From an uncultured Ruminiclostridium sp. (GTDB lineage Bacteria > Bacillota > Clostridia > Oscillospirales > Ruminococcaceae): 51,606 bases of DNA. How positions within the stretch are numbered: the stretch's first letter is position 1; each line of letters opens with the position of its first letter. Under the pieces are notes generated by a model. It was not told the origin of the DNA and did no database searches. It was given only the letters and a program-made list of their open reading frames with translations. A program made the position numbers and the translations under genes. The DNA lies in assembly GCA_947630175.1 (NCBI GenBank), contig CANRGJ010000014.1, positions 1 through 51,606 of the forward strand, written 5' to 3'. Shown piece after piece: positions 28,278 to 46,913 of this stretch.

Positions 28278-29048
28278 ATGGAAAATAAACTGCGCCTTTA
28301 CGGCTTCAACAACCTGACAAAATCCCTCAGCTTCAACATCTACGACGTATGCTACGCCAAGACTGAGCGTGAACAAAGGGATTACATCGCCTACATTGAT
28401 GAGCAGTACAACAGCGAGCGCCTCACCTCCATACTTATGACCTTAACCGAGATGATAGGCGCGCAGGTTCTTAATATCTCCCGTCAGGATTACGAGCCGC
28501 AGGGCGCTTCCGTTACCTGTCTCATTTCCGAAAGCTCCAAAAAGAAAAAGGGAGAAAGCGGAGAAACTGTTATTGCTCACCTTGACAAAAGCCATGTCAC
28601 TGTTCACACCTATCCCGAATACCACCCCGAAAACGCCATAGCAACATTCCGTGTTGACATAGACGTCGCCACCTGCGGAAAGATAACCCCTCTTTCCACT
28701 CTCGATTATCTTATCGGCAGCTTTGACAGCGACATCATCACAATGGATTACCGCATAAGGGGCTTTACCCGTGATATTTCGGGGAAAAAGCTGTTCACCG
28801 ACCACAGCATAACCTCGATCCAGGACTATATCGACGACAGCACCTTGAAAAAGTACGACGCTGTTGACGTGAACGTGTATCAGTCCAATATTTTTCACAC
28901 CAAAATGCTGATAAAGGAAATAGATCTGCAAAACTACCTGTTCAATCAGGACGTTTATGAACTCCCTCCCAAGACAAGACTTGATATAACAAACAATCTC
29001 CGCCGTGAAATGATAGAGATCTTCAGCGGCAGCAATATTTACACCTAA
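28278..29048 (+). CDS. speD: S-adenosylmethionine decarboxylase proenzyme
   Basis: 256 residues, the long (E. coli-type) class. Self-cleavage between Lys104 and Ser105 ([14 protein letters not shown]) creates the pyruvoyl cofactor; Cys133 in [10 protein letters not shown] is the usual proton donor. Makes decarboxylated SAM, the aminopropyl donor for spermidine synthase encoded two genes downstream. A Lys/Glu-rich insertion ([11 protein letters not shown]) precedes the processing site. Ribosome site GAAAGGA. First gene of the polyamine operon. Confidence 0.95.
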
Positions 29049-29058
29049 AGGACAAATA

Positions 29059-30504
29059 ATGAAACTTAACCAAAACAGAGCGCCTATCAAAGAGGCGCTG
29101 GAGGAACTGCAAAACAACAGGGTGGTACCCTTTGACGTACCGGGACACAAGCGTGGAAAAGGCAATCCTGAGCTTACCGAGTTTCTTGGAAAGCGCTGTA
29201 TGAGCCTTGACGTGAACTCAATGCGCCCGCTGGACAATCTCTGCCACCCCGTTTCTGTGATAAAGGAGGCGGAGGAGCTTGCCGCGGACGCATTCGGCGC
29301 AGGCTACGCCTTTTTTATGGTTGGAGGAACTACCTCTGCCGTGCAGGCTATGGTGCTTTTTGCCGCAAAGCGCGGCGAAAAAATAATCCTCCCCCGCAAC
29401 GTTCACCGAAGTGTGATAAACGCAATGGTATTAAGCGGCGCTGTACCCGTTTATGTAAATCCCGCAGTTGACAAGCGCCTCGGCATTTCTCTCGGTATGA
29501 GCGTCAGCGACGTTGAAGCCGCCATAAAGGCAAACCCCGACGCAAAGGCTATTCTTGTGAACAACCCCACCTATTACGGTATTTGCAGCGACATAAAGAA
29601 AATAACCGACCTTGCTCATTCCCACAATATGCTTATGCTTGCGGACGAGGCTCACGGAACGCATTTTTATTTCGGAGAGGACTTGCCCTTGAGTGCAATG
29701 GCGGCAGGTGCGGATATGGCGGCGGTAAGCATGCACAAAAGCGGCGGCAGCCTTACCCAAAGCAGCTTTCTCCTTACAGGTCATAACATAAACCCTGCAA
29801 GCGTCCGCCAGATAATCAACCTCACCCAGACCACCAGCGGCTCATATCTTTTTATGTCCAGCCTTGACATCAGCCGTCAGAATCTTGCCGTAAAAGGGAA
29901 GGAGATCTTCCGCCGCGTCTGCTCCCTCGCCGAATACGCAAGGGAGGAGATAAACAGGATAGGGGATTACTACGCTTATTCCCGTGAAATAATAAACGGC
30001 GACAGCATTTACGACTTTGACGCCACAAAGCTGTCCATAAATACCATAGATGTAGGCTTGGCTGGAATAGAGGTATACGACATTCTCCGTGACGATTACG
30101 ACATACAAATAGAGTTCGGCGATATGGGCAATATTTTGGCCTATATCAGCGTCGGCGACAGAGAGCGTGACATCGAGCGCCTTGTTGGAGCGCTTTCTGA
30201 GATACGCCGCCGCTATAAAAAGGACAAAAGCGGTATGCTCATTTCCGAGTATATCAGCCCCGCAGTTGAAATGACCCCGCAGGAGGCTTTCTATGCGGAG
30301 AAAGAATCCGTTCCCCTTGAGGACAGCGAGGGAAGGATATGCAGCGAGTTCGTTATGTGCTATCCTCCCGGGATACCCATTCTTTCCCCCGGCGAAAGGA
30401 TAACGAACGACATAATCCGCTATATAAAATATGCCAAGGAAAAGGGCTGCTTTTTGACAGGAGCCGAGGATATGAACATCGACAGGCTCAACGTCACACG
30501 GTAA
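29059..30504 (+). CDS. speA: Orn/Lys/Arg decarboxylase family, probable arginine decarboxylase
   Basis: 481 residues, fold-type I PLP enzyme. N-terminal VPFDVPGHKRGKGN, the PLP-binding region LADEAHGTHFYFG and the Schiff-base Lys in SMHKSGGSLTQSS; short C-terminal domain (VMCYPPGIPILSPGERI). Length matches the biosynthetic B. subtilis SpeA-type enzymes and not the 700-residue inducible ones. Arginine as substrate is inferred from the agmatinase gene two positions downstream; lysine or ornithine cannot be excluded from sequence. Starts 10 bp after speD. Confidence 0.9.
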   Translation: MKLNQNRAPIKEALEELQNNRVVPFDVPGHKRGKGNPELTEFLGKRCMSLDVNSMRPLDNLCHPVSVIKEAEELAADAFGAGYAFFMVGGTTSAVQAMVLFAAKRGEKIILPRNVHRSVINAMVLSGAVPVYVNPAVDKRLGISLGMSVSDVEAAIKANPDAKAILVNNPTYYGICSDIKKITDLAHSHNMLMLADEAHGTHFYFGEDLPLSAMAAGADMAAVSMHKSGGSLTQSSFLLTGHNINPASVRQIINLTQTTSGSYLFMSSLDISRQNLAVKGKEIFRRVCSLAEYAREEINRIGDYYAYSREIINGDSIYDFDATKLSINTIDVGLAGIEVYDILRDDYDIQIEFGDMGNILAYISVGDRERDIERLVGALSEIRRRYKKDKSGMLISEYISPAVEMTPQEAFYAEKESVPLEDSEGRICSEFVMCYPPGIPILSPGERITNDIIRYIKYAKEKGCFLTGAEDMNIDRLNVTR

Positions 30505-30522
30505 AAAGGAGATAATTTCAAA

Positions 30523-31383
30523 ATGGATCTATGGTTCAGCGAGTTTCACGCCAAAGGCGTAAAGCTCTCTATAAAGGTAACAAAACAGCTTTGCTCCGTA
30601 CAAAGCGATTTTCAGCAGATAGATGTTTTTGATTCCGAGGAATTCGGAAGATTTCTCACTCTTGACGGCTATATGATGCTCACCGAGCGTGATGAGTTTA
30701 TTTACCACGAAATGATAACCCACGTTCCAATGGCTGTAAATCCCGACATAAAAAAAGTCCTTGTGATAGGCGCAGGTGACGGGGGAGCAGTCCGTGAGCT
30801 TGCCAGATATAAGACTATCGAAAAGATAGATTTAGTTGAAATAGACGAAAAGGTGGTGGAAGTCTGCAAGGAATATCTTCCCAATATCGCCTGCTGTTTT
30901 GACGACCCAAGACTTACCGTTTATTATCAGGACGGACTTAAATTTGTTCGCAGATGTGAAAACGAATACGACCTTATAATCGTTGACAGCACCGACCCCT
31001 TTGGACCTGGCGAAGGACTCTTTACAAAGGAATTTTACGGCAACTGCTGTAAGGCTCTTACAAAAGACGGAATAATGGTGAACCAATGTGAAAGCCCGTT
31101 CTATCAGGAGGACAGAGTTGCTATGCAGCGCTCCCACAAGCGCATTGTTGAGAGCTTCCCCATAAGTAAGGTATATCAGGCGCATATTCCCACCTATCCG
31201 TCGGGACACTGGCTTTTCGGATTTGCAAGCAAGCGCTTTCACCCAATAAAGGATTACGACGGCAAACGCTGGCAGGAGCTGGGCATTTCCACTCGCTACT
31301 ACAATCCTCAGCTGCATATCGGCGCATTTGCTCTGCCCAATTACGTTCAGGAGTTACTTGAAAACGTGGAGGGAATAGTCTGA
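30523..31383 (+). CDS. speE: Spermidine synthase
   Basis: 286 residues. Aminopropyltransferase that joins putrescine and decarboxylated SAM. GAGDGGAVRELARY is the nucleotide-binding loop, YDLIIVDSTDPFGPGE carries the catalytic Asp, and the N-terminal MDLWFSE...SDFQQIDVF matches the family. Located in the operon between the decarboxylase and agmatinase genes, overlapping the latter by one base. Confidence 0.96.
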   Translation: MDLWFSEFHAKGVKLSIKVTKQLCSVQSDFQQIDVFDSEEFGRFLTLDGYMMLTERDEFIYHEMITHVPMAVNPDIKKVLVIGAGDGGAVRELARYKTIEKIDLVEIDEKVVEVCKEYLPNIACCFDDPRLTVYYQDGLKFVRRCENEYDLIIVDSTDPFGPGEGLFTKEFYGNCCKALTKDGIMVNQCESPFYQEDRVAMQRSHKRIVESFPISKVYQAHIPTYPSGHWLFGFASKRFHPIKDYDGKRWQELGISTRYYNPQLHIGAFALPNYVQELLENVEGIV

Positions 31384-32234
31384 TGAAAGAAAAGAACATA
31401 GAAACATTTATAGCCTGCGACAGCGATTACGAAGCGGCAAAAGCCGTGATATTCGGCGCTCCATTTGACGGAACCACCAGCTACCGTCCCGGCGCCCGCT
31501 TCGGCAGCAAAGCGATAAGAAGCGAAAGCTACGGAATAGAAACATACAGTCCCTATCAGGACAAGGATCTTGAGGATATCGCCGTTTTTGATGGCGGCGA
31601 GCTTGACTTTCCCTTTGGCAACACTCAGCGCGTCCTGCAAATGATAGAGGAATATACGGCTGATGTCCTGAAGGACGGCAAGCTCCCCGTTATGATCGGC
31701 GGGGAACACCTTGTGACTTTGGGAGCAGTAAGAGCCGCCGCGAAGAAATATCCCGACCTTAACATAATTCATTTTGACGCACACGCCGACCTGCGGCAGG
31801 AATATCTGGGCGAGGAACTGTCCCACGCCTGCGTTTTGCGCCGCTGTCATGACATTTTAGGCGACGGCAGGATATTTCAGTTCGGTATCCGCAGCGGCGA
31901 CCGTGAAGAATTTCGCTTTGCCGCAAATCACACATATATGAACAAATTCAACCTTGATACCCTTGATGAAATATGTGATAAATTAAAAGACAAGCCTGTA
32001 TATTTTACCATAGACCTTGACGTGCTGGATTCTTCCGTTTTCCCCGGAACAGGAACCCCTGAGGCGGGAGGGATATGTTTTAGCGAGCTTATACGGGGCA
32101 TAATCAAGGTGGGAAAAATAAATGTAGTGGCGGCGGATATAAACGAGCTTTCCCCGCCATACGACCCGTCAGGCGTCAGCACCGCCGCCGCCTGCAAGAC
32201 CCTGCGTGAGCTTTTGCTTGCAGTTGTCCGCTGA
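31383..32234 (+). CDS. speB: Agmatinase
   Basis: 283 residues, ureohydrolase family. Manganese ligands: His in GGEHLV, HFDAHADL, and DLDVLD; the final acidic VVAADINELSPPYD is also conserved. Cleaves agmatine into putrescine and urea, linking the arginine decarboxylase to SpeE. Start codon overlaps the speE stop (TGATG), so translation is coupled. Confidence 0.95.
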   Translation: MKEKNIETFIACDSDYEAAKAVIFGAPFDGTTSYRPGARFGSKAIRSESYGIETYSPYQDKDLEDIAVFDGGELDFPFGNTQRVLQMIEEYTADVLKDGKLPVMIGGEHLVTLGAVRAAAKKYPDLNIIHFDAHADLRQEYLGEELSHACVLRRCHDILGDGRIFQFGIRSGDREEFRFAANHTYMNKFNLDTLDEICDKLKDKPVYFTIDLDVLDSSVFPGTGTPEAGGICFSELIRGIIKVGKINVVAADINELSPPYDPSGVSTAAACKTLRELLLAVVR

Positions 32235-32249
32235 CCGAAAGGAGCATAA

Positions 32250-32900
32250 ATGAACCGTTTACTTGACAGACTTTCTTACAAATTCCGCCGTATCTGCATA
32301 CCAAATCTTATGCTTTATCTTGTCATTGCAATGGCGGGAGTGTATATTGTTGAGCTTTTTGTACCGAACGTATCCCTTATCAGCTATATGATATTTGACC
32401 GTGAACTGATTTTTGCGGGACAGTGGTGGCGTGTGATAACGTGGATACTTATCCCGCCGTCAAGCAGTATAATATTCATAATTTTCAGCTTGTATTTTTA
32501 CTATCTCATCGGTCTGGGACTTGAACATAGCTGGGGCAGCTTCAAGTTTAATCTCTATTATCTTGTGGGAATAATTGCAACCATAATCGGCGGCTTTATA
32601 ACAGGCACTACGGACAACACATTTCTGAACTACTCTCTCTTTTTTGCCTTTGCGATTTTGTATCCCGATTTTCAGGTCATGCTTTTCTTCATTATTCCCA
32701 TAAAGATAAAATGGCTTGCTTTGGTGGATCTGCTGTTCTTTATCATTTCGCTCATATTCTCCCCTATGTATATAAGGGTTGCGATAATCGCCTCAATGCT
32801 TAACTTTATCCTGTTTTTCTACGAGGATTTCGGCAAATTTATCAAAAATCAGATCTACTATTTCAAGCACCGCAATAAGTACAAAAATAACAAATATTGA
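32250..32900 (+). CDS. Rhomboid-like membrane protein without the catalytic pair
   Basis: 216 residues with six membrane segments. Rhomboid-type features: WWRVITWILIPPSS after helix 1 and the Gly-rich YYLVGIIATIIGGF helix. The catalytic GxSG is missing (the corresponding stretch reads LNYSLFFAFAILYPDF) and no catalytic His is evident in the last helix, so it is probably a pseudoprotease (iRhom/derlin-like) or a distant relative. Basic, Asn-rich C-terminus. It sits inside the polyamine operon, 15 bp after speB, with no obvious functional tie. Confidence 0.75.
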   Translation: MNRLLDRLSYKFRRICIPNLMLYLVIAMAGVYIVELFVPNVSLISYMIFDRELIFAGQWWRVITWILIPPSSSIIFIIFSLYFYYLIGLGLEHSWGSFKFNLYYLVGIIATIIGGFITGTTDNTFLNYSLFFAFAILYPDFQVMLFFIIPIKIKWLALVDLLFFIISLIFSPMYIRVAIIASMLNFILFFYEDFGKFIKNQIYYFKHRNKYKNNKY

Positions 32901-32916
32901 TTTTGAGAGGAATAAT

Positions 32917-33264
32917 ATGAATTGTAACGTCAAGTCATTATATGTATGTGTAAAAGACATGGAAAGAGCGATAGAGTTTTATGAAGAATTTTTTGAAAAG
33001 AAAGTTACGGAGAAAGATGATTTATACAGCGTCTTTGACATAAACGGTTTTAGATACGGTTTGTTTGCGTATGAAAAGGTGAATGAAAAACACGTTTTCG
33101 GAAGCAATTGCCTGCCAAGCATCAGTGTTGATAATATAATTGTTCTTAAACAAAAAATCAAAGACAAGGAACTATGTTTTCCTCTGACAAAAATCGGTGT
33201 CAACTGGGTGACTGAGTTTATTGACTCCGAAGGAAATCACATTGAATTAACTGCACCTGAATAA
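32917..33264 (+). CDS. VOC (glyoxalase/bleomycin-resistance) family protein
   Basis: 115 residues, one VOC unit pair: VKSLYVCVKDMERAIEFYEEFF start and WVTEFIDSEGNHIELTAPE end with the final metal-ligand Glu. The first expected ligand His is not visible (Tyr or Cys at that place), so metal binding is uncertain. AT-rich compared with its neighbours and lying between speB and the carboxyspermidine genes, so it may be a late insertion into the operon. Ribosome site GAGAGGAA. Confidence 0.85.
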   Translation: MNCNVKSLYVCVKDMERAIEFYEEFFEKKVTEKDDLYSVFDINGFRYGLFAYEKVNEKHVFGSNCLPSISVDNIIVLKQKIKDKELCFPLTKIGVNWVTEFIDSEGNHIELTAPE

Positions 33265-33303
33265 TAAAAGATAATAATTAAAACATGAAAGGAAAAACAA
33301 AAA

Positions 33304-34512
33304 ATGGGAAAATGTCTTATAATCGGCTGCGGCGGCGTAGCGGGCGTAGCTATCCACAAATGCTGTCAGAATGACGAAGTGTTTGAGGGAATAATGATAG
33401 CCAGCCGCACCAAATCCAAATGCGACAAAATAAAGGCTGAAATAGAGTCGGCGGGCAAGAGCAGGACCGTTATCGAAACCGCACAGGTGAACGCCGATAA
33501 CGTGGACGAGCTTATAGCGCTGATAAACAGCTACAAGCCCGACGTTGTGCTGAACCTCGCCCTGCCTTATCAGGATCTTACCATAATGGACGCCTGCCTT
33601 GCCACAAAAACAAATTATGTTGATACCGCAAACTATGAGCCGCCCGATACCGCAAAATTCGAGTACAAATGGCAGTGGGCTTACCGTGAAAAATTCAAGG
33701 AGGCAGGTATAACCGCCCTTTTGGGCAGCGGCTTTGACCCCGGAGTTACGGGAGTATTCTGCGCTTACGCTATGAAACACTATTTTGACGAGATAAACTA
33801 TATAGACATTCTCGACTGCAACGGCGGCGACCACGGCTATCCCTTTGCCACCAACTTCAATCCTGAAATAAATATCCGTGAAGTAAGCGCAAACGGCAGC
33901 TACTGGGAAAACGGCGACTGGGTAGAAACCAAGCCTATGGAGATAAAGCGTGTTTACAACTTTGAGGGCGTGGGTGAAAAGGATATGTACCTGCTCCACC
34001 ATGAGGAGCTTGAGAGCCTTGCCCTGAACATCAAGGGAATAAAGCGCATACGCTTCTTCATGACCTTCGGACAAAGCTATTTAACACACCTGAAATGCCT
34101 TGAGAACGTGGGAATGACTTCGATAGAACCCATAGAATTTGAGGGCAAGCAGATAGTGCCTCTGCAATTTTTGAAAGCCGTTCTCCCTGACCCCGCCTCT
34201 CTCGGTCCCCGCACCAAGGGCAAAACCAACATCGGCTGCATAATGCAGGGCAAAAAGGACGGCAAGGACGTAAAATATTATGTCTACAACATCTGCGACC
34301 ATCAGGAATGTTACAATGAGGTGGGAAGTCAGGCTGTAAGCTACACCACAGGCGTTCCTGCCATGATAGGCGCAATGCTGCTGATGAATAAAACATGGAG
34401 TGGTGCAGGCGTTTTCAACATTGAGGAGTTTGACCCCGATCCGTTTATGGACGCGCTGAACAAGTGGGGACTCCCTTGGAAAGAAACCTTCGACCCCACG
34501 CTGGTAGACTGA
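33304..34512 (+). CDS. Carboxynorspermidine/carboxyspermidine dehydrogenase (saccharopine-dehydrogenase family)
   Basis: 402 residues. N-terminal Rossmann motif LIIGCGGVAGVAIHK and the family sequence LNLALPYQDLTIMDAC, SGFDPGVTGVFCAY and YTTGVPAMIGAML. It reduces the imine formed by putrescine (or diaminopropane) and aspartate-beta-semialdehyde to carboxyspermidine (or carboxynorspermidine). The adjacent nspC, 4 bp downstream, completes the route. Ribosome site GAAAGGA. Confidence 0.93.
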   Translation: MGKCLIIGCGGVAGVAIHKCCQNDEVFEGIMIASRTKSKCDKIKAEIESAGKSRTVIETAQVNADNVDELIALINSYKPDVVLNLALPYQDLTIMDACLATKTNYVDTANYEPPDTAKFEYKWQWAYREKFKEAGITALLGSGFDPGVTGVFCAYAMKHYFDEINYIDILDCNGGDHGYPFATNFNPEINIREVSANGSYWENGDWVETKPMEIKRVYNFEGVGEKDMYLLHHEELESLALNIKGIKRIRFFMTFGQSYLTHLKCLENVGMTSIEPIEFEGKQIVPLQFLKAVLPDPASLGPRTKGKTNIGCIMQGKKDGKDVKYYVYNICDHQECYNEVGSQAVSYTTGVPAMIGAMLLMNKTWSGAGVFNIEEFDPDPFMDALNKWGLPWKETFDPTLVD

Positions 34513-34516
34513 TTTT

Positions 34517-35653
34517 ATGAACGATTTTGAACAGCTTATGAGCGTAAAGACCCCCGCCTACATAATTGACGGGGAACAGCTCAGAAAAAATCTTGAAATC
34601 CTTCATCAGGTGGAAACCGCCAGCGGTGCACATATTCTCCTTGCACAGAAATGCTACTCCGTCTATCAGACCTACCCGCTGATAGGGAAGTACATCAGCG
34701 GCTGCACCGCCAGCGGACTTTACGAGGCGCGTCTGGGTCACGAGGAAATGGGAAAGGAAAACCACATCTTCTCCCCTGCCTATTCAGATGACGAGTTTGA
34801 CGAAATACTCGACATCTGCGACCACATCAGCTTTAACAGCGTTTCCCAGTGGGAAAAGTTCAGGCATAGGGTGCAAAACTCCGCCAAAAAGCCGAGCTGC
34901 GGAATAAGGGTAAACCCTGAACACTCCACCCAGTCCCACGGGATCTACGACCCGTGCGCTCCTTTTTCAAGGCTTGGAGCCACCCGCAGCAGCTTTACAA
35001 ACGGATTGCCCGACGGAATAGAGGGACTCCATTTTCACACCCTTTGCGAGCAGAATGCGGACGTTCTGGCTGAAACGGCGAAAGCCTTTGAGAAAAAGTT
35101 CGCCGATTTTCTCCCTAAAATAAATTGGCTGAATATGGGCGGCGGACATCACATAACCCGCTATGATTACGACATAGATTTGCTTGTAAAAACCGTAAAG
35201 CACTTCACTGAAACCTACGGCGTGACCATTTATCTTGAGCCCGGCGAAGCGGTAGCGCTTAACGCAGGCTGGCTTGCGGCGACTGTCCTTGACACCGTAC
35301 ACAACGGTATGGATATTGCTATACTTGACGCCTCCGCCGCCTGTCATATGCCCGACGTGCTGGAAATGCCCTACCGACCCAATATAGTAAGCGCAGGCGA
35401 ACCAAATGAAAATCCCTATACTTACCGTCTTGGCGGGAACACCTGTCTTGCTGGGGACATTATCGGAGATTACAGCTTTGATTACCCGCTGAAATCAGGC
35501 GACCGCCTTTTCTTTGAGGATATGGCGATATATTCTATTGTGAAAAACAACACCTTCAACGGAATGGCGCTGCCCAGCATATATATTTACGAAAACGGTG
35601 AAGTCGAGCTGCTCCGTCAGTTCGGCTACGAGGATTTTAAAAACAGACTATAA
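34517..35653 (+). CDS. nspC: Carboxynorspermidine/carboxyspermidine decarboxylase
   Basis: 378 residues, alanine-racemase-fold PLP enzyme. The cofactor Lys lies in ILLAQKCYSVYQTYPL; other marks are GLHFHTLCEQNAD, NMGGGHHITRYDYD and the C-terminal GNTCLAGDIIGDYSFDYPL with the catalytic Cys. Decarboxylates carboxyspermidine to spermidine. Last gene of the polyamine operon; a weak terminator hairpin follows at 35708-35730. Confidence 0.95.
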   Translation: MNDFEQLMSVKTPAYIIDGEQLRKNLEILHQVETASGAHILLAQKCYSVYQTYPLIGKYISGCTASGLYEARLGHEEMGKENHIFSPAYSDDEFDEILDICDHISFNSVSQWEKFRHRVQNSAKKPSCGIRVNPEHSTQSHGIYDPCAPFSRLGATRSSFTNGLPDGIEGLHFHTLCEQNADVLAETAKAFEKKFADFLPKINWLNMGGGHHITRYDYDIDLLVKTVKHFTETYGVTIYLEPGEAVALNAGWLAATVLDTVHNGMDIAILDASAACHMPDVLEMPYRPNIVSAGEPNENPYTYRLGGNTCLAGDIIGDYSFDYPLKSGDRLFFEDMAIYSIVKNNTFNGMALPSIYIYENGEVELLRQFGYEDFKNRL

Positions 35654-36893: not shown

Positions 36894-36992
36894 ATGAAGC
36901 AAATTACGAATAGAGAATACGAAGAGTGGCAGAAATATCAAAGACAGCGTCTTTATAGAACAGCCGTCCCACAAGGGCGGCTTGTTCACTGA
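36894..36992 (+). CDS. Possible 32-residue peptide
   Basis: GAGGTAA lies 9 nt before the ATG; the peptide reads MKQITNREYEEWQKYQRQRL and ends GRLVH. Charged and helical. The last codons overlap a bulged hairpin (GCCGTCCC/GGGCGGC, 36963-36981) just before the response-regulator gene, so it might be a leader peptide, or chance. Confidence 0.3.
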   Translation: MKQITNREYEEWQKYQRQRLYRTAVPQGRLVH

Positions 36993-37008
36993 AAAGAAAG
37001 GAACGAAT

Positions 37009-37680
37009 ATGTACAAGCTGATGATAGTTGAGGACGACAAGGGAATTGCCGAAGCGCTTGCCGACCTTGCAAGAAACTGGGAATTTAATGTTCACACAGT
37101 GGAAAACTTCCGTAATGTGATGAGCGAATACTCCGACTTTCAGCCCCACCTTATCCTTCTTGACATATCTCTTCCTTTCTTTGACGGCTATCACTGGTGC
37201 AGTGAGATACGAAAAATATCAAGCGTTCCCATAATATTCATCTCCTCCGCCTCTGACAATATGAATATGATAATGGCAATGAATATGGGGGCGGACGATT
37301 TCATAGCAAAGCCCTTTGACCAAAACGTGCTTATTGCAAAGATCCACGCTCTCCTCCGCCGCACATACGATTTTGCGGACAGCGTTCCGATACTTGAACA
37401 CAAAGGCGCATTTCTGAATACAGGAAACGGCACGCTTATGTATATGGATAAGCCTATCCCTCTTTCCAAAAACGAATACAGAATACTTCTCTGTTTAATG
37501 GAAAGCAAAGGCAAGGTGGTGAGCAGGGAAAAACTTATGGAACGCCTTTGGAAAACCGATATTTTCATTGATGAGAACACCTTGACTGTAAACGTGAATC
37601 GCCTGCGGAAAAAGTTGGACGCAGCGGGGCTTGCCGATTTTATCACCACAAAATTCGGCGTGGGTTACATCGTTGAATAA
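37009..37680 (+). CDS. OmpR/BceR-type response regulator
   Basis: 223 residues. Receiver domain with acidic pocket EDD (8-10), phospho-acceptor Asp52 in LLDISLP, Lys near residue 102 (FIAKPF), then an OmpR-type winged helix (LSKNEYRILLCLMESKGKVVSREKLM, NVNRLRKKLD). Cognate of the sensor kinase 12 bp downstream. Start at 37009 has AAAGGAA 7 nt upstream. Its likely target is the operator at 38686-38721 in front of the ABC transporter. Confidence 0.94.
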   Translation: MYKLMIVEDDKGIAEALADLARNWEFNVHTVENFRNVMSEYSDFQPHLILLDISLPFFDGYHWCSEIRKISSVPIIFISSASDNMNMIMAMNMGADDFIAKPFDQNVLIAKIHALLRRTYDFADSVPILEHKGAFLNTGNGTLMYMDKPIPLSKNEYRILLCLMESKGKVVSREKLMERLWKTDIFIDENTLTVNVNRLRKKLDAAGLADFITTKFGVGYIVE

Positions 37681-37692
37681 AAAGGAGCAGAT

Positions 37693-38682
37693 ATGAAACT
37701 GTTTTTTGCTTACCTCAGACAGCGAGCCGCTGTTATAATCGCTTTTCTGCTGTTTTTTGCAATATTTGCCGTTTCCTTTATTCTCTATCATCTTCCTTTG
37801 CAGGCGGTGCTGTACCCGGCTCTTTTGTGTGCAGTCCTGGGAATTGTCTTTATGATTTTTGATTATCTCAAAGTATGGAAAAATCATAAGATCCTCACCT
37901 CCGCTGCAAATTTTACAGAGGAAATGATAGCCTCACTTCCACCGCACATTACGATCAATGAGAAAGATTATCAGGATATTATAATAAAGCTGGTGGAGGA
38001 AATTGCTCAGCTTCAAAACAGCTTTCTTGTCCGTTATCGTGATACGGTGGATTATTACACATTTTGGGTCCATCAGATAAAAACTCCTATCGCGTCTATG
38101 CGTCTTACACTGGAAAACGAGGATTCTCCCCTTTCCCGCAAGCTCAATCAACAGCTTTTCAGGATAGAGCAGTATGTGGAAATGGTTTTGGCATATCTCC
38201 GCCTTGACTCCTCCTCAACAGACTACGTTTTCAAGGAACACGATATAGACGCCGTCGTAAAGCAGGCGGTGAAAAAATTCGCCTCCGAATTTATAAACGA
38301 AAAGATAACTCTTGAATACGCCACGCTACAAGGAAAAGTCATAACCGACGACAAATGGCTCTCCTTTGTAATCGAGCAGATCTTGTCCAACTCTTTAAAA
38401 TATACCAAAGAGGGAAAGATAAGAATTTATATGAAAGAACCTCTGCTCCTTTGTATTGAGGACACAGGCATAGGCATAGCGCCACAGGATCTGCCCAGAA
38501 TATTTGAAAAGGGATATACGGGACTTAACGGCAGGACCGACAAAAAAGCCAGCGGTATTGGACTGTACCTCTGTAAAAGGATTTGCGACAATCTGGGTGT
38601 AAAAATAACGGCATATTCTCAGCTTGACAAGGGAACGGCTATTTGTCTTGACCTTCGCCAGTATGAATTGAAAAAGGATTGA
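37693..38682 (+). CDS. BceS-type intramembrane-sensing histidine kinase
   Basis: 329 residues. Two closely spaced N-terminal membrane helices (about 12-34 and 36-58) with almost no external loop, as in kinases that cannot sense peptides themselves and rely on their transporter. Phospho-accepting His127 in FWVHQIKTPIASM, then ATPase N box EQILSNSLKYT, DTGIGI and ASGIGLYLCKR. Works with the response regulator upstream and the transporter genes downstream. Confidence 0.94.
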   Translation: MKLFFAYLRQRAAVIIAFLLFFAIFAVSFILYHLPLQAVLYPALLCAVLGIVFMIFDYLKVWKNHKILTSAANFTEEMIASLPPHITINEKDYQDIIIKLVEEIAQLQNSFLVRYRDTVDYYTFWVHQIKTPIASMRLTLENEDSPLSRKLNQQLFRIEQYVEMVLAYLRLDSSSTDYVFKEHDIDAVVKQAVKKFASEFINEKITLEYATLQGKVITDDKWLSFVIEQILSNSLKYTKEGKIRIYMKEPLLLCIEDTGIGIAPQDLPRIFEKGYTGLNGRTDKKASGIGLYLCKRICDNLGVKITAYSQLDKGTAICLDLRQYELKKD

Positions 38683-38685
38683 TTT

Positions 38686-38721
38686 CTTACAAAAATGTAA
38701 GATTTTATCGGGAAATGTAAG
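38686..38721. promoter_or_regulatory. BceR-type operator and activator-dependent promoter
   Basis: CTTACA-AAAA-TGTAAG (38686-38701) fits the TnACA-N4-TGTAA consensus described for BceR-like regulators exactly. A second half-site TGTAAG lies at 38716-38721, 20 bp further. Downstream is an extended -10 (TGT TAAAAT, 38751-38759) without a good -35 box, as expected for an activated promoter. Confidence 0.85.
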
Positions 38722-38787
38722 CCTTTTCTATGGTGAGCGTTTCCCGTTTCTGTTAAAATAAAGACAGAAAATTTTCGGAGGAAAAAT

Positions 38788-39552
38788 ATGAGCATATTGG
38801 AAGTAAACGCGCTGCGGAAAATATATTCATCACGCCTTGGCAGCAATAAAACGGTTGCGCTCAAAAACGTGGATTTTACAGTTGAAAGCGGAGAATATAC
38901 GGCTATAATGGGAGAATCAGGCTCAGGCAAAACTACTCTGCTGAACATTCTTGCGGCGCTTGACAAGCCGACAGGCGGCAGCGTTTTCCTTGACGGAATG
39001 GATCTGTCAAAGATAAAGGATTCAGCGGCTGCGGCTTTCCGCAGGGATAATCTCGGCTTTGTCTTTCAGGAGTTTAACCTGCTTGACACCTTTACCATAG
39101 AAGATAACATTTATCTTCCCCTTGTCCTTGCAGGAACAAGCTACAAGCAAATGCACGAATGCCTTGTTCCAATCGCTGAAAAGCTGGGAATAACAGAGCT
39201 CCTGAAAAAATATCCTTACGAGGTATCAGGCGGTCAGAAACAGCGTGCGGCGGTAGCAAGAGCCATAATCACCGACCCTAAGCTGATACTTGCCGACGAG
39301 CCCACAGGCGCCCTTGATTCAAAAGCCACCGATGAGTTGTTAAGACTGTTCAGAGAGATAAACAAAGCGGGGCGTACTATCCTTATGGTGACCCATTCGG
39401 TAAAAGCCGCAAGCTCCGCCGACCGTGTTCTTTTCATAAAGGACGGGGAAGTCTATCACCAGCTTTACAGAGGGGAACAAAGTGACGAGCAGCTTTATCA
39501 GAAAATATCCGAAACCCTCACAATGCTTGCGACAGGCGGTGAAAACAAATGA
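38788..39552 (+). CDS. BceA-type ABC transporter ATPase
   Basis: 254 residues. Walker A GESGSGKTT (42-50), Q-loop FQEFNLLDT, signature VSGGQKQR, Walker B LILADEPTGALDS, switch His in VTHSVK. MacB/LolD-like subgroup used with FtsX-type permeases. Overlaps the permease gene by 4 nt (ATGA). Expected to drive removal of a peptide antibiotic from its lipid target and to signal flux to the kinase. Confidence 0.95.
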   Translation: MSILEVNALRKIYSSRLGSNKTVALKNVDFTVESGEYTAIMGESGSGKTTLLNILAALDKPTGGSVFLDGMDLSKIKDSAAAAFRRDNLGFVFQEFNLLDTFTIEDNIYLPLVLAGTSYKQMHECLVPIAEKLGITELLKKYPYEVSGGQKQRAAVARAIITDPKLILADEPTGALDSKATDELLRLFREINKAGRTILMVTHSVKAASSADRVLFIKDGEVYHQLYRGEQSDEQLYQKISETLTMLATGGENK

Positions 39553-41606
39553 AAGCGGGATTTTATCCAAGACTTGCCCTCGACGGCATACGAAAAAACA
39601 AAAGAATGTATATCCCCTACCTCCTCACCTGTATTGGAATGATAATGATGTTTTATATCCTTGTATTTCTGCTTCATTCCAACGCCGTTTCTTATCTTGA
39701 GGACGATGAAATCATCAAAAGCGTTCTTGGTCTGGGGAGCTGGGTGGTGGCGATATTTGCCTGCTTTTTCCTGTTTTACACAAATTCCTTTATAATCCGC
39801 CGCAGGAAAAAAGAATTCGGCTTATACAACATTCTGGGAATGGACAAGCGCAACATAGGAAAAATTCTTTTTTGGGAAACGCTGATGACCTCCGCTTTTT
39901 CTCTTATTATCGGGATTTTTGCGGGAATAATCCTTTCCAAAGCGGCTGAACTTGGACTTGTGAACATAGTTCACGGCGGTATAACCTACGACCTTTACGT
40001 TTCTCCCGACTCAATATTTGCAACACTGACGATATTCGGAATACTGTTTTTTCTCATATTGCTCAACGGCTTGCGGCAGATAAAATTTTCTGGAGCAGTA
40101 TCTCTTCTTCGCAGCGACAGGACAGGTGAAAAGCCTCCAAAGGGAAATATCCTGCTTGGCATAGCTGGAGTAGTTATCCTCGCCGCCGCATATTACATCG
40201 CAATGTCTATAACACAGCCCATAGCCGCACTAATGATGTTCTTTGCGGCTGTTGTGATGGTGATAATTGCCACCTACCTTATAATGATATCAGGCTCGGT
40301 ATTGTTCTGCCGTATACTTCAGAAAAACAAAAAATACTATTATAAACCCAATCATTTCGTATCCGTTTCCTCAATGGTCTACCGTATGAAACGAAACGGT
40401 GCAGGGCTCGCCTCTATCTGCATACTTGCCACAATGGTGCTTGTTATGATATCCTCCACCACGGGACTTTATTTCGGCTTGGAGGATATGCTGTTCACCC
40501 GTTACCCCAGAGAAATGAATTTATATTTCACCTTCCCAACTGATAAAAGCTATAATGGATCAGAGCTTTCAGGAATAATTAACGTAGTTGACAGCACGTT
40601 AGAAAAGTACAGTGCCGACAAAAGGGAAGTGATAGACTGCAAATACATTCTTGTTTCTGGACTTCTGGAAAACGGTATAGTTGAAACAGACGTTACGCAG
40701 ATAGACGAATCACAGCTTGACGTCCTTACAAATCTGTATAATTTCTTTTTCGTATCTCTTGACGACTACAACAGAACGTCAGGAACAAATGAAACGCTGA
40801 ACGACGGGGAAACCATCTTGTTTATTAATCAAGGATCCTATGACGGCGATGAAATTTCCTTCAACAACGGAAATTCTTTCAGAATAACAAAGCGCCTTGA
40901 CAGCTTTATTGAAAATTACGATTCCGCCATATCTCCCGTTCCCAGCATATTCCTGATAGTCCCCGACACGGAAAAAGCCGTCAGCGGTCTGGACCAACTT
41001 GCTGATTTCACGGGCAATTCAATGTTGAGCAGACGCTGGAACTATTCCTTTGATACAGGGCTTGATGACAAAGCGCAGATCGAGCTTTATCACAGCCTTC
41101 ATGACGATGTTCTGGAATACCTTAACGAATGTAAGATCAATGAGATGGGATATTCATTCGGTTGTGACGGAAGAAAGGCAGGCGAGGCAGGCTTTTACAG
41201 TATGTACGGCGGACTTTTCTACCTCGGCATAATGCTCAGCATTGTGTTTATTTTCGCCACTATCCTGATAATTTACTATAAACAAATATCCGAGGGCTAC
41301 GAGGATCGCTCCCGCTTTGAGATTATGCAGAAGGTGGGAATGACCGAGCGTGAAATAAAAAAGAGCATAAATTCCCAGCTCCTGACGGTATTTTTCCTGC
41401 CTTTGGCGCTTGCCGCCCTGCATTTGGTATTTGCTTTCCCGATGATATACAGACTGCTTTATTTATTCCAGCTTTCCAACGTAGGGCTTTTTGCCTTTAC
41501 GTCTTTGATAAGCTATTGCATTTTTGCCTTGTTTTACACTTTGGTGTACCGAATAACCTCCAACGCTTACTTCCATATTGTCAGCGGCTCCGCCGAGCAG
41601 GACTGA
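39549..41606 (+). CDS. BceB-type ABC permease with large extracellular domain
   Basis: 685 residues, the usual length. Ten membrane segments in the BceB order, FtsX-like regions near residues 60-200 and 560-670, and a large extracytoplasmic domain (about 310-540) between helices 7 and 8 that binds peptide in this family. Characteristic FGLYNILGMDKRNIGKIL and FEIMQKVGMTEREIKKSI elbow sequences. The resistance substrate (bacitracin, lantibiotic or other) cannot be deduced. Confidence 0.94.
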   Translation: MKAGFYPRLALDGIRKNKRMYIPYLLTCIGMIMMFYILVFLLHSNAVSYLEDDEIIKSVLGLGSWVVAIFACFFLFYTNSFIIRRRKKEFGLYNILGMDKRNIGKILFWETLMTSAFSLIIGIFAGIILSKAAELGLVNIVHGGITYDLYVSPDSIFATLTIFGILFFLILLNGLRQIKFSGAVSLLRSDRTGEKPPKGNILLGIAGVVILAAAYYIAMSITQPIAALMMFFAAVVMVIIATYLIMISGSVLFCRILQKNKKYYYKPNHFVSVSSMVYRMKRNGAGLASICILATMVLVMISSTTGLYFGLEDMLFTRYPREMNLYFTFPTDKSYNGSELSGIINVVDSTLEKYSADKREVIDCKYILVSGLLENGIVETDVTQIDESQLDVLTNLYNFFFVSLDDYNRTSGTNETLNDGETILFINQGSYDGDEISFNNGNSFRITKRLDSFIENYDSAISPVPSIFLIVPDTEKAVSGLDQLADFTGNSMLSRRWNYSFDTGLDDKAQIELYHSLHDDVLEYLNECKINEMGYSFGCDGRKAGEAGFYSMYGGLFYLGIMLSIVFIFATILIIYYKQISEGYEDRSRFEIMQKVGMTEREIKKSINSQLLTVFFLPLALAALHLVFAFPMIYRLLYLFQLSNVGLFAFTSLISYCIFALFYTLVYRITSNAYFHIVSGSAEQD

Positions 41607-41673: not shown

Positions 41674-41677
41674 ATGA

Positions 41678-41720
41678 AAAATTCCTCCCAAGGCGTTTAT
41701 ACCGCCGAGGGAGGAATTTT
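41678..41720 (-). terminator. Terminator of the minus-strand small-protein cluster
   Basis: AAAATTCCTCCC (41678-41689) pairs with GGGAGGAATTTT (41709-41720); inside it GGCG pairs with CGCC. The U-run fits minus-strand transcription. Confidence 0.8.
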
Positions 41721-41728
41721 ATCACAAA

Positions 41729-41860
41729 TTAGTTTTCGCTGTTTTGCTTTTTCTTGTTCTGCTGGCTCTGGTTGTTCTGCTTATTCTGCTGGTTCTGATT
41801 GCTCTGCTGATTTTGCTGACTTTGGTTGTTCTGCTTGTTTTGCTGATTTTTGTTGCTCAT
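41729..41860 (-). CDS. 43-residue Asn/Gln-rich protein with an exact internal repeat
   Basis: Reads MSNKNQQNKQNNQ and continues almost only with Asn, Gln, Ser and Lys to the end (SEN). Residues 5-17 and 23-35 are the same 13-mer, NQQNKQNNQSQQN, but their codons differ by several synonymous changes, so the protein sequence and not the DNA is kept. Ribosome site GGAGG 8 nt before the ATG. The opposite-strand Cys/Ser-rich frame is its shadow. Low-complexity, prion-like composition; no known family. Last gene of the small-protein cluster, 72 bp after the previous stop. Confidence 0.75.
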   Translation of the reverse strand: MSNKNQQNKQNNQSQQNQQSNQNQQNKQNNQSQQNKKKQNSEN

Positions 41861-41932
41861 GATGAACCTCCGAAGAAGAAAATATGAATAGCGTTTATCT
41901 ATTCGATAATATTTTTCCCGAAAATCCCAAAG

Positions 41933-42061
41933 CTATACAAGCAAAATATAAAGTAAAGCCAAGATAAGCTTTTGATCAGCATTTTCCTGTATAAGCACCA
42001 GCAGAAGAAGTAGTATCAGCATAGTATCGCTGTCGCTGCGCAAATCAAGCGTCCCACTCAT
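41933..42061 (-). CDS. 42-residue double-hydrophobic-segment protein
   Basis: MSGTLDLRSDSDTMLILLLL, then LVLIQENADQKLILALLYIL, LV. Two hydrophobic stretches (14-24 and 31-42) joined by a charged turn. The ATG overlaps the stop of the upstream coiled-coil gene as ATGA and has GCAGGT upstream, which argues strongly that it is translated. Very short Leu-rich proteins of this kind with a DSDT start occur in spore-forming Clostridia, from memory; function unknown. Confidence 0.7.
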   Translation of the reverse strand: MSGTLDLRSDSDTMLILLLLLVLIQENADQKLILALLYILLV

Positions 42062-42843
42062 TGACCTGCTCTTTTCTTTTGGCACTTTGGGCAGTTGCAC
42101 TGCGCCTGATTGTGTTCGTTTATGTATTGATTGAAATTTGGGGGAGTATTGCCGCCTTCCTTTTTTTCCTCTTTGCTTTTGGCAAATACGGCAGGATCTA
42201 TCAGCTCGTCAATGCATTGTTTATCATCTTCTTCAATGCAGCATTCGTCCTGTTTTTCCTCGCATTTCTCCTCACTTTTGCCGCAGTCGTTCTTCTCCTC
42301 GACCTTTTCCTCTTCGGCTTCTTTCTTTTCTTCCGCCTCAGCCTGCTTTTCAGCCATTATGCGTTCAGCCTCAGCTTTTTCTTCTGCAATCCTCTCAGCT
42401 TCAGCCTTTTCTTCTGCGATTTTCTCAGCCTCGGCTTTCTCCTTCGCAATTCTTTCAGCCTCTGCTTTCTCCTTTGCGATTCTCTCAGCCTCGGCTTTCT
42501 CTTTTGCAATTCTCTCAGCCTCTGCTTTTTCCTTTGCAATCCTCTCAGCCTCCGCTTTTTCCTTTGCAATCCTTTCAGCTTCAGCTTTTTCCTTTGCAAT
42601 TCTCTCAGCCTCAGCCTTCTCCTTTGCAATTCTCTCAGCCTCGGCTTTTTCCTTTGCAATTCTTTCAGCCTCAGCCTTCTCCTTCGCAATCCTTTCAGCC
42701 TCCGCTTGTTCTTCTGCGGCTTTTTTTGTCTCTTCGATTTGACTTGCGACAGATTTTTTCGCCATCTCCAGAGCTTCCTTTATGTAAGCCTGCTGCTGTT
42801 TTTCAAGCTCTGACTGACTGATATTGCTTTTGGTCCATTCCAT
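42058..42843 (-). CDS. Ten-residue-repeat helical protein with a C-terminal Cys cluster
   Basis: 261 residues. N-terminal 46 residues are helical; residues 47-166 are twelve tandem copies of AEAERIAKEK-type decads (nine near-identical, three variants), giving a long charged single alpha helix or coiled coil as in TolA; then an acidic Glu/Lys region, Cys-containing segments (NDCGKSEEKCEE, DECCIEEDDKQC) and the tail QCNCPKCQKKRAGQ with a CxCxxC knuckle. No signal peptide or membrane segment. Ribosome site GGAGGA. Follows the 106-residue protein gene by 15 bp. Confidence 0.85.
   Translation of the reverse strand: MEWTKSNISQSELEKQQQAYIKEALEMAKKSVASQIEETKKAAEEQAEAERIAKEKAEAERIAKEKAEAERIAKEKAEAERIAKEKAEAERIAKEKAEAERIAKEKAEAERIAKEKAEAERIAKEKAEAERIAKEKAEAEKIAEEKAEAERIAEEKAEAERIMAEKQAEAEEKKEAEEEKVEEKNDCGKSEEKCEEKQDECCIEEDDKQCIDELIDPAVFAKSKEEKKEGGNTPPNFNQYINEHNQAQCNCPKCQKKRAGQ
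42346..42705 (-). repeat. Tandem 30-bp coding repeat, 12 units
   Basis: Twelve 30-bp units encode AEAE[R/K]I[A/M].E[K] decads. Units differ mostly at third codon positions. The middle nine are most alike, suggesting slippage or unequal exchange in the centre with older edge units. Confidence 0.85.
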
Positions 42844-42858
42844 AAAAAATCCTCCTGT

Positions 42859-43179
42859 TTAAAAAAGTCCGTCCAACATACCGCTGCTTTTCAGCAGCGG
42901 CAGTATATTCATAATTTTCATCAGTCTTAAAGCGCTGTCAGCTTTTCGCTGATTTTCGGGACGCAAATGCGGCTTCAGAGCAAGGAGCAAACGTGTGCTG
43001 TCGTCATCCTTGTTCATCTGTGACATAATTTCTCCCAGCCGCATTACAGCCTGAATATCTATTCCGCCGAAAATATCGTTTTCTTCATCGGGAGGTTTAT
43101 CTTCAGATGTTGCCTCCTTGTTTTCTTCGGCTTCAAGCAGCTGTTCAAGGAGCTTTGCAAGCATATCCTCCTGTGACAT
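42859..43179 (-). CDS. Helical protein of unknown function (106 residues)
   Basis: An N-terminal amphipathic helix (MSQEDMLAKLLEQLLEAEEN), an acidic flexible linker (SEDKPPDEENDIFGGID), then helices with a conserved look: LALKPHLRPENQRKADSALR and LMKIMNILPLLKSSGMLDGLF. I recall this C-terminal pattern as frequent in Clostridia without a known function. Ribosome site AAAGGAG. Flanked by the 75-residue and the decad-repeat protein genes, 19 and 15 bp apart. Confidence 0.8.
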   Translation of the reverse strand: MSQEDMLAKLLEQLLEAEENKEATSEDKPPDEENDIFGGIDIQAVMRLGEIMSQMNKDDDSTRLLLALKPHLRPENQRKADSALRLMKIMNILPLLKSSGMLDGLF

Positions 43180-43198
43180 GAGAAAACTCCTTTCTGCG

Positions 43199-43426
43199 CT
43201 ACTCCTGCAACTTTTTCATTATTTTCTCTGCGTCGGGGGAATTGAGCATTTTCTCTTTCACAGAGGGATTTTGCATTATCGTTTTCAGCTTGTCTGCGTC
43301 CTCTTTGCGCATACTGTTCAGCATATCGTCCACGTTGCCCTTTTCCAGCGAGCGTTTTAGCACTTCAGACGAAACTCCCAGCTTTTTGCTGGCAAGCTCT
43401 ATCATTTTTTCCATATTGCTGTTCAT
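43199..43426 (-). CDS. Small helical protein, first gene of the cluster (75 residues)
   Basis: All-helical and charged: NMEKMIELASKKLGVSSEVL, then EKGNVDDMLNSMRKEDADKL and PSVKEKMLNSPDAEKIMKKL. It looks like two similar helix pairs separated by short Asn/Asp turns. Strong ribosome site AAAGGAGG. No family known to me. Directly downstream of a SigE-like promoter candidate (43442-43470). Confidence 0.8.
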   Translation of the reverse strand: MNSNMEKMIELASKKLGVSSEVLKRSLEKGNVDDMLNSMRKEDADKLKTIMQNPSVKEKMLNSPDAEKIMKKLQE

Positions 43427-43441
43427 AATTGACCTCCTTTT

Positions 43442-43470
43442 AATGTATGAAAAGCATTGATAAAATATTC
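43442..43470 (-). promoter_or_regulatory. Candidate SigmaE-type (mother-cell sporulation) promoter
   Basis: On the minus strand GAATATT (43470-43464), 14 bp, CATACATT (43449-43442), against the B. subtilis SigE pattern KMATATT-N14-CATACAMT: one mismatch. Caveat: the transcript would begin only about 10 nt before the ATG and cut into the ribosome site. A poor sigmaA alternative (TTACCG-18-TATTTT) overlaps. Confidence 0.4.
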
Positions 43471-43476
43471 TGACAA

Positions 43477-43505
43477 TTGACTTTTCGGTAATTTTCTGTT
43501 ATAAT
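43477..43505 (+). promoter_or_regulatory. SigmaA promoter of the phosphoesterase gene
   Basis: TTGACT (43477-43482), 17 bp, TATAAT (43500-43505). Confidence 0.8.
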
Positions 43506-43577
43506 TTGATAGAAAAATGTCATATTATGTACATCTTTAAAAAGTACAGCATATTATTTTATTAAGGAATGTTTGAT

Positions 43578-44042
43578 ATGAAAATCATCGTAACGGCAGA
43601 TACCCATAAAAACTTTGATATTTACAACGACGTTGTAAACCGCAATCCCGCAGATTATTATATTCATCTCGGCGACGGTGTGAACGAATTTGCCGAGGTC
43701 GCAAAGGCAAATCCCGACAAAAACTTTGTTTTTGTAAAAGGCGAACACGACTTTTGCTCTGCTTCCTCCAAGCAAATACTGGAAATAGGACAATTCAGAA
43801 TATTATGTGTTCACGGTCACGAGCAGGAGGGAATTGATGCATTGGTAGAAGAAGCAAAGAATTCCGACTGCAATATACTTCTTTACGGGCACACCCACAT
43901 TTACAAAACCGAAAAAATAGACGGCATATATGTTATGAATCCGGGAAGTCTTGGTTCTCCCAGCGTAAATACGGAAAGCTCCTACGGAATACTTGAAATA
44001 AGCGACGACGGTCAGGTGAAGATGAATATTGTAGCTTATTGA
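43578..44042 (+). CDS. YfcE/MJ0936-type metallophosphoesterase
   Basis: 154 residues. Metal-site motifs in order: ADTH, HLGDG, a GEHD where the family has GN(C/H)D, VHGHE, YGHTH, and NPGS. Cleaves phosphodiesters or monoesters with two metal ions; natural substrate unknown. Replacement of the bridging Asn by Glu is unusual. Start at 43578, with AAGGAA 8 nt upstream; the in-frame ATG at 43569 overlaps that ribosome site. Confidence 0.9.
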   Translation: MKIIVTADTHKNFDIYNDVVNRNPADYYIHLGDGVNEFAEVAKANPDKNFVFVKGEHDFCSASSKQILEIGQFRILCVHGHEQEGIDALVEEAKNSDCNILLYGHTHIYKTEKIDGIYVMNPGSLGSPSVNTESSYGILEISDDGQVKMNIVAY

Positions 44043-44940: not shown

Positions 44941-46599
<1,659 letters not shown>

Positions 46600-46616
46600 T
46601 TATTGTGATTTGAGGA

Positions 46617-46913
<297 letters not shown>

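Follow-up and report, generated by a model that had tools for sequence, protein, structure and literature searches.

What is the role of five small adjacent genes, here called A to E (Table 1), on the minus strand of a 51,606-nucleotide stretch of DNA (the window; contig CANRGJ010000014.1) from an uncultured Ruminiclostridium sp.? Clostridial spore formation governs the survival and spread of many gut bacteria, and its structural genes are largely inferred from Bacillus. The host genome (G000) comprises 2.70 Mb in 46 contigs, with a completeness of 100 and a contamination of 0.17. A previous sequence-only reading of the locus had taken the five genes as parts of one self-assembling structure, with C as a decad-repeat rod, D as a membrane anchor, E as a prion-like polymeriser, and A and B as helical adaptors, and had offered a spore-coat or mother-cell role as one hypothesis. 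The five open reading frames (ORFs) are arranged as it described, and the start of D does overlap the stop of C in an ATGA sequence. The A-D neighbourhood, the lack of a known family, and the mother-cell role found support in our computational analysis, whereas the rod, the prion-like part, and the anchor helix did not. We propose that A-B-C-D is a sporulation cassette, expressed in the mother cell from a sigma-E promoter in the window's species and forming a membrane scaffold from D, C, A, and B; we put the probability of this reading at roughly 0.58. More generally, the gene set, which is conserved across much of Clostridia, probably helps to build dormant spores.

Gene B was present in 49 of the 60 searched genomes, the host genome included. 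At 29 of 30 fetched loci (the host genome and a near-identical one included), the ORF picked as following B was of the C type, and the gene order A-B-(C)-D was conserved. By profile count, A and D lay beside B at all 28 genus loci (L003-L030). Each of A and D was found at 71 of the 73 named loci, the missing cases being at contig ends; these loci come nearly all from metagenome-assembled genomes, one exception being Ruminococcus sp. Marseille-P6503 (L103). The sequence-only reading would have fallen if the genes did not occur together in other genomes, and for A, B, and D they do. Outside the genus, the D profile matched at 43 of 47 distant loci; since the 22 segments from which it was built came partly from loci then counted, some of these match by construction. 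The genus-built A profile recovered 21 of the 47 distant A genes, and by eye most distant loci have an A-like small ORF. Set A5 drew on 60 of the 69 B loci listed and set A6 on 54 of the 65 A loci listed, each together with the window; B picks at L061, L086, L091, and L105 and A picks at L068 and L088 were excluded from the lists. The B of L034 showed 100% identity to that of the window over the best segment.

At the class level, a genus-based B profile (A1) matched 144 of 391 genomes, and a broader profile built from 43 sequences (A4) matched 209. Across the phylum, B matches were obtained in 26 of 299 genomes: three belonged to the same order as the window, nine others had E<1e-7, and 14 had E>1e-6. 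Of these nine, eight were read in context, and six of the eight showed, by eye, a small protein with a hydrophobic hairpin after B. A comparison of the window with a near-identical species gave five synonymous changes and one non-synonymous change in A, and four and none in B. The first 35 codons of C carry two synonymous changes and the last 40 carry three, with no non-synonymous change in either part, whereas the whole of C has 47 synonymous and 12 non-synonymous changes and one 10-residue decad unit is absent. Other genomes thus retain A, B, and D as well as the two ends of C, and we conclude from these comparisons that A to E are real, selected genes and more than chance ORFs.

The proteins C and D are best considered together. 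C starts with a conserved MEWxxxNISxxELExxQ motif and ends, in many loci, with a Cys-rich FNxYIxxHN...CxCxxC sequence. Its middle varies from decad repeats to Pro/Glu-rich or Val/Glu-rich stretches, and in most genus loci it is non-repetitive. The decad pattern count was 0 in 24 of the 29 genus C proteins, although one of the 24 (L005) has a related decad by eye. The array was seen in the closest species alone (L001-L006), and its length differs even between near-identical ones; the decad rod is not supported as a conserved part. Many Clostridia lack a separate C; there, the gene following B encodes a variable hydrophilic stretch, often starting with MYRRY, that ends in the D hairpin. Frame-based counts for the 71 named loci with D gave a separate C-type ORF between B and D at 29, a single open frame from B to the hairpin at 35, and an unclear arrangement at seven. 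Among the 43 distant loci with D, 40 had one frame and three were unclear; among the 28 genus loci, 27 had a separate C and one was unclear. The one-frame group takes in some short D proteins without a long tether. Since the two form a single frame in many Clostridia and C is separate in the genus, C and D are most simply interpreted as split halves of one membrane-attached protein; by the same comparison, C is a split-off linker and the decad "rod" a local repeat expansion.

The D hairpin contains two non-polar runs with median lengths of 12 and 11 residues, separated by a 7-residue polar turn. None of 132 loci (near-duplicates included) had a non-polar run of at least 18 residues inside the profile match, which disagrees with D being a simple anchor helix. 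Because the runs are this short, the hairpin appears small for two ordinary membrane-spanning helices and would fit entry into one membrane leaflet.

B has, besides an acidic linker, a conserved helical core with the motif LLxALKPxL...N..K.D.A. An AlphaFold2 (AF2) model of B placed helices at residues 3-19, 42-55, 60-71, and 74-98 with low confidence (mean predicted local distance difference test score, pLDDT, 67), and that of A was all-helical, also with low confidence (mean pLDDT 66). Neither model had a fold match in the PDB at E<=0.001. None of the five proteins, and none of the scanned distant versions of A, B, and D, reached the cut-off of a Pfam or NCBIfam model; in A, B, and D these scans revealed neither a peptidoglycan-binding nor a hydrolase domain. 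A Pfam search with 61 B proteins gave no match at E<=0.001 (0/61), and PHROGs yielded nothing at E<=0.01 for four of the proteins (A, B, D, and E). Profile matches to PDB sequences (best E 0.074 for B and 0.0011, to 1jjr, for A) and matches of two distant A proteins to ATAD3_N (E 4e-5 and 8e-5, below the cut-off) were judged to be chance or generic helix similarity. The A-B-C-D cassette is thus without a family name in Pfam or NCBIfam, in agreement with the claim of the sequence-only reading that no known system matches; that B occurs in 209 of 391 class genomes and yet belongs to no such family constitutes an annotation gap. A literature search of titles and abstract openings, which nameless genes escape, returned no description of the cassette. 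Nor was a mention noticed in the parts covered of the clostridial sporulation catalogues PMC3533761 and PMC3789822, where table entries without names were not searched.

According to the part of PMC3789822 consulted, clostridial sigma-E promoters have an ATA in the -35 region and are similar to those of B. subtilis. The sequence before A, the first gene, is GAATATT-N14-CATACATT, which has the -35 ATA core, a CATACA-type -10, and the conserved spacing. The rest of the sigma-E consensus, beyond the ATA core, is general background. The pattern GNATATN-N14-CATACANT, chosen after the A site had been seen, has its sole exact match in the genome at this site, and the reversed control gave none. An identical site precedes A in L001-L004 and L006, of which L001 and L002 are near-identical genomes; in L005 the -35 reads GAATAAA, with spacing and -10 unchanged. 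The promoter weights were set by hand from the B. subtilis consensus with the window's sites already in view; an independent test of the promoter is therefore provided by the distant loci and not by the clade of the window. In 30 of 35 distant loci outside the genus, with A starts assigned by eye (L171, L179, L187, L189, and L196 were left out), seven A upstream sequences scored at least 10, compared with none of 70 control ORFs (Mann-Whitney p 1.7e-5). The gene spoIIIAA served as positive control and showed the N14 spacing and a CATA -10 at 22-35 nucleotides before the start in 9 of 16 loci. The spoIVA control was uninformative, as the start was not located in five of 20 loci (the host genome among them) and the upstream sequence of the other 15 resembled, by eye, the end of another gene; the spoIID upstream control was mixed.

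The co-distribution of B with sporulation was evaluated using SpoIVA (PF09547) as a stand-in. SpoIVA was detected in the host genome, in 55 of the 60 searched genomes, and in 280 of the 391 class genomes. Both proteins were found in 192 of the latter, B alone in 17, SpoIVA alone in 88, and neither in 94, giving an odds ratio of 12 (Fisher p 2e-22, not corrected for phylogeny). The association is strong, but it does not amount to a clean presence/absence rule. Within the genus, G010 (98% complete) had no match for B, SpoIVA, SpoIIIAA, or GPR. G017 (88% complete) had B without a SpoIVA match, and G016 (76%) the reverse. In addition, at nine of nine loci read from two families (f31 and f77), the gene that comes next on the strand of D encodes SleB (TIGR02869 above cut-off), with gaps of about 60 to 690 nucleotides, and this adjacency suggests a shared process. 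In the class sample, these two families have 25 genomes with a B match, of which nine were read. Together, the sigma-E-type site, the SpoIVA co-occurrence, G010, and SleB make a mother-cell role the best reading in silico. Spore formation is reported for Ruminococcus bromii strains in the part of PMC5814915 seen.

Several observations weigh against this reading. A looser sigma-E pattern gave 14 genome matches versus six for reversed controls, a modest enrichment; only six of the 30 distant A upstream sequences exceeded their own shuffles at p<0.05; and within the genus only 10 of 28 scored at least 10, the window's clade accounting for six of the 10. A mere 15 nucleotides separate the end of the -10 from the start of A in the window, so the predicted transcript start would fall inside the ribosome-binding site of A (the distance is 26-67 nucleotides in L004-L006), and a sigma-A-like site matching 11/12 positions lies at 43684-43657 on the strand of A. 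The 88 of 280 SpoIVA-positive genomes without a B match indicate that sporulation does not generally require the cassette; they suggest that it is an accessory rather than a core part, unless B there is too divergent for the profile. Of the 17 genomes with B but no SpoIVA match, six are at least 90% complete. G010 is a single case, in which two SpoIID-type matches below the cut-off persist, and a GPR match is missing from G006 and G020, which both have B and SpoIVA. As for SleB, the adjacency appeared in four of the 35 distant loci of the initial draw, which belong without exception to f31 and f77, and five more loci were fetched because of these; no SleB was noticed next to the cluster in the window or in the other families that were read. 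In the f31 and f77 lineages, neither A nor sleB had a clear sporulation promoter upstream.

The sequences themselves show which genes are present, their order, the one-frame or split state of C-D, the promoter-like sites, the SpoIVA co-occurrence, and the SleB adjacency in two families. The compartment, the membrane, the binding among A, B, and C, the placement of SleB, and the task itself are what we infer in the following model. A-D would be made in the mother cell from the sigma-E promoter. The D hairpin would enter a single membrane leaflet, most probably in the outer forespore membrane, and carry a long disordered tether, which is encoded in frame in many Clostridia and would be supplied here by the co-translated partner C. 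The small helical proteins A and B, presumably cytosolic, may sit on the tether and form a thin scaffold at the boundary of cortex and coat, where it could assist in positioning or retaining factors of the spore envelope, for example the cortex-lytic enzyme SleB. E would be a separately transcribed small forespore protein.

The basement layer of the Bacillus spore coat, SpoVM/SpoIVA, combines a very short membrane-associated peptide with a cytosolic partner, both expressed in the mother cell. The proposed arrangement of A-D is alike in its short membrane peptide (D) with cytosolic partners, in its location at the outer forespore membrane, and in mother-cell expression. It differs in that D is a two-segment hydrophobic hairpin and in that the host encodes SpoIVA elsewhere in its genome; no Pfam or NCBIfam model above cut-off assigns A-D to SpoVM, SpoIVA, or a known coat family. 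We suggest tentatively, and as an idea we hold to be rather doubtful, that A-B-(C)D might be an unrecognised Clostridia-wide scaffold at the outer forespore membrane, in which a monotopic hairpin with a disordered tether recruits A and B and positions enzymes of the spore envelope such as SleB, and which would be the counterpart, built from unrelated proteins, of the Bacillus morphogenetic layer. The cassette also recalls SleB and its partner YpeB (described in the part of PMC8745062 seen), in that SleB comes next after A-B-D in the nine loci; the differences are that A, B, and D lack a detectable peptidoglycan-binding or hydrolase domain and that no sleB was seen adjoining the window's cluster. 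Evidence of a like kind, that is, sporulation sigma promoters and co-distribution with the sporulation core, is used in the parts seen of the catalogues PMC3533761 and PMC3789822. If the spore-assembly role is true, the cassette would offer a target open to direct testing and perhaps a marker for lineages that sporulate; the SleB linkage provides a concrete entry point.

Gene E looks like a unit apart from A-D with a conserved forespore-type promoter. By a composition criterion, an E-like ORF occurs beside only 15 of the 73 named clusters, and in three of these 15 loci D and E are separated by an amylase-type gene (by eye). The upstream element, G(Y/A)ATA-N14/15-GGNNANAATA, resembles sigma-F/G promoters, as expected for a forespore regulon member; the sigma-F/G consensus used for it is general background. 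Its score was full in 11 of the 15 loci with E, 9.2 of 10.2 in three, and 7.2 in one, whereas 67 of 411 other ORF upstream sequences reached 8.5. Within the host genome alone the pattern gave two matches versus three for reversed controls, which is not significant, and a gpr control, resolved in 20 of 30 loci, was weaker than E (12 of 20 scored at least 8.5 and two at least 9.7). The sigma factor of E is therefore only a suggestion. E resembles the minor-type small acid-soluble spore proteins (SASP) in its tiny size, its richness in Asn, Gln, and Lys, and its forespore-type promoter; composition is the sole resemblance between the proteins themselves, and no SASP family match was obtained, with no Pfam and no NCBIfam family at E<=1. 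An inverted repeat before E shows paired changes, by eye, in several of L034-L041, L043, L046, and L049 (variants GAATAG/CTATTC, GAACGG/CCGTTC, and GATAG/CTATC). It may be an operator, a leader hairpin, or chance, and its fold z-score in the E leader is only -1.1.

These features of C and E bear on the self-assembling structure of coiled-coil rod, membrane anchor, helical adaptors, and Asn/Gln-rich polymeriser. The compositions of C and E and the joint travel of the A-D genes are what one would expect of it, but the decad count of 0 in 24 of 29 genus C proteins (L005 with its related decad among them) counts against its rod, and an E that has its own promoter-like site, occurs at 15 of 73 named loci, and may be separated from D by an amylase-type gene is a poor candidate for the polymeriser of an A-D unit; we consider such a structure very improbable. 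An origin as a phage-derived or mobile cassette is scarcely credible. Small nameless proteins with repeats can evoke one, and two weak PHROGs matches (E 0.0011 and 0.0025) did fall in the low-complexity part of C; against these stand the class-wide conservation, the same divergent neighbour at 61 of 65 named loci, and the lack of PHROGs matches for the other four proteins.

A vegetative or stationary-phase role deserves closer comparison with the mother-cell cassette. A-D could be a membrane-associated housekeeping cassette, perhaps tied to the metallophosphoesterase, in which case the overlap with SpoIVA would reflect shared clostridial ancestry. The metallophosphoesterase neighbour at 61 of 65 named loci, the GroES/GroEL genes near the cluster in the window and downstream in L263 (by eye), the 17 genomes with B and no SpoIVA match, the sigma-A-like site on the strand of A, and 10 sigma-70-type sites in the region versus 3.4 expected are all consistent with this. 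We nevertheless regard it as unlikely, given the retention of the sigma-E-type site in L001-L006, the position of SleB as next gene in two other families, and the joint lack of B, SpoIVA, SpoIIIAA, and GPR matches in G010. The SleB adjacency in all nine loci read could also be taken as the mark of a forespore or germination module, under sigma-F/G and at the inner spore membrane, that positions SleB and is not a mother-cell scaffold; the forespore-type promoter of E and the description of C. difficile sleB as sigma-F-controlled (in the part of PMC3789822 seen) agree with this. On the other hand, the A upstream sequences of the window's clade fit sigma-E, the SleB lineages have no clear forespore site, and for the sigma-F-type motif the named A upstream sequences are at control level (9 of 66 at 8.5 or above versus 67 of 411 for other ORFs), and we regard the module as unlikely too. 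A mother-cell cassette remains the interpretation that we prefer.

Table 1. Positions of the genes and sequence elements of the cluster in the window
Feature	Position	Strand	Description
Gene A	43199-43426	-	75 aa, predicted all-helical
Gene B	42859-43179	-	106 aa, acidic linker and conserved helical core
Gene C	42058-42843	-	261 aa, conserved ends, variable low-complexity middle
30-bp tandem array, AEAERIAKEK decad repeat in C	42365-42711	-	11.6 copies (Tandem Repeats Finder)
Gene D	41933-42061	-	42 aa, hydrophobic hairpin; start overlaps C stop as ATGA
Gene E	41729-41860	-	43 aa, Asn/Gln/Lys-rich
Putative sigma-E-type promoter of A, GAATATT-N14-CATACATT	43442-43470	-	15 nt before A start
Putative sigma-F/G-type (forespore) promoter of E, GTATA-N14-GGGAAAAATA	41910-41938	-	overlaps D stop codon
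Inverted repeat GAATAG...CTATTC in E leader	41886-41904	-	by eye
Terminator-like stem-loop and T-run, 3' of E	41677-41714	-	by eye
Calcineurin-like metallophosphoesterase, divergent upstream of A	43569-44042	+	PF12850, 94.4 bits (cut-off 27)

The stem-loop after E is not in the output of a scan whose loop limit it exceeds; beyond E, the end of an FtsX-type permease gene lies on the opposite strand. The metallophosphoesterase-type ORF, with GHTH and LGD/SDTH-type motifs, is divergent upstream of A in 61 of the 65 named loci with enough flank. It is faced in the window by a strong sigma-A-like promoter, TTGACT-N17-TATAAT (43477-43505, plus strand; 11/12, with a TG before the -10), which is back to back with the sigma-E-type site of A. 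GroES/GroEL genes (by eye) are at 44941-46901 on the minus strand, and such genes also occur downstream of the B-containing cluster L263, from another class. The plus strand carries in series, at 36982-41606, genes for a response regulator (by eye) and, by domain search, a histidine kinase, an ATP-binding cassette (ABC) ATPase, and the 685-residue FtsX-type permease; we take this row to resemble a Bce-type peptide-sensing and resistance module. A polyamine-synthesis-like run at 28278-35653 on the same strand contains, by eye, SpeD-like, arginine decarboxylase-like, spermidine synthase-like, and agmatinase-like genes and ends with carboxynorspermidine dehydrogenase- and decarboxylase-like genes.

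Leu-rich or Gly/Cys-rich peptides are the small neighbours upstream of the cluster in several other families. Small Gly/Cys-rich hydrophobic proteins are encoded upstream of the cluster in L182, L196, L204, L252, and L253; the two that were scanned gave no Pfam or NCBIfam family above cut-off. A peptide of 53-69 residues with two copies of a SEILFFILxFLLLFYD-like motif is encoded just upstream in L181, L198, L200, L201, L202, and L255-L257, which belong to several families; the one example scanned matched no protein family above cut-off. In L262 and L265, from another class, a ferritin-like gene is, by eye, divergent upstream of B-D clusters.

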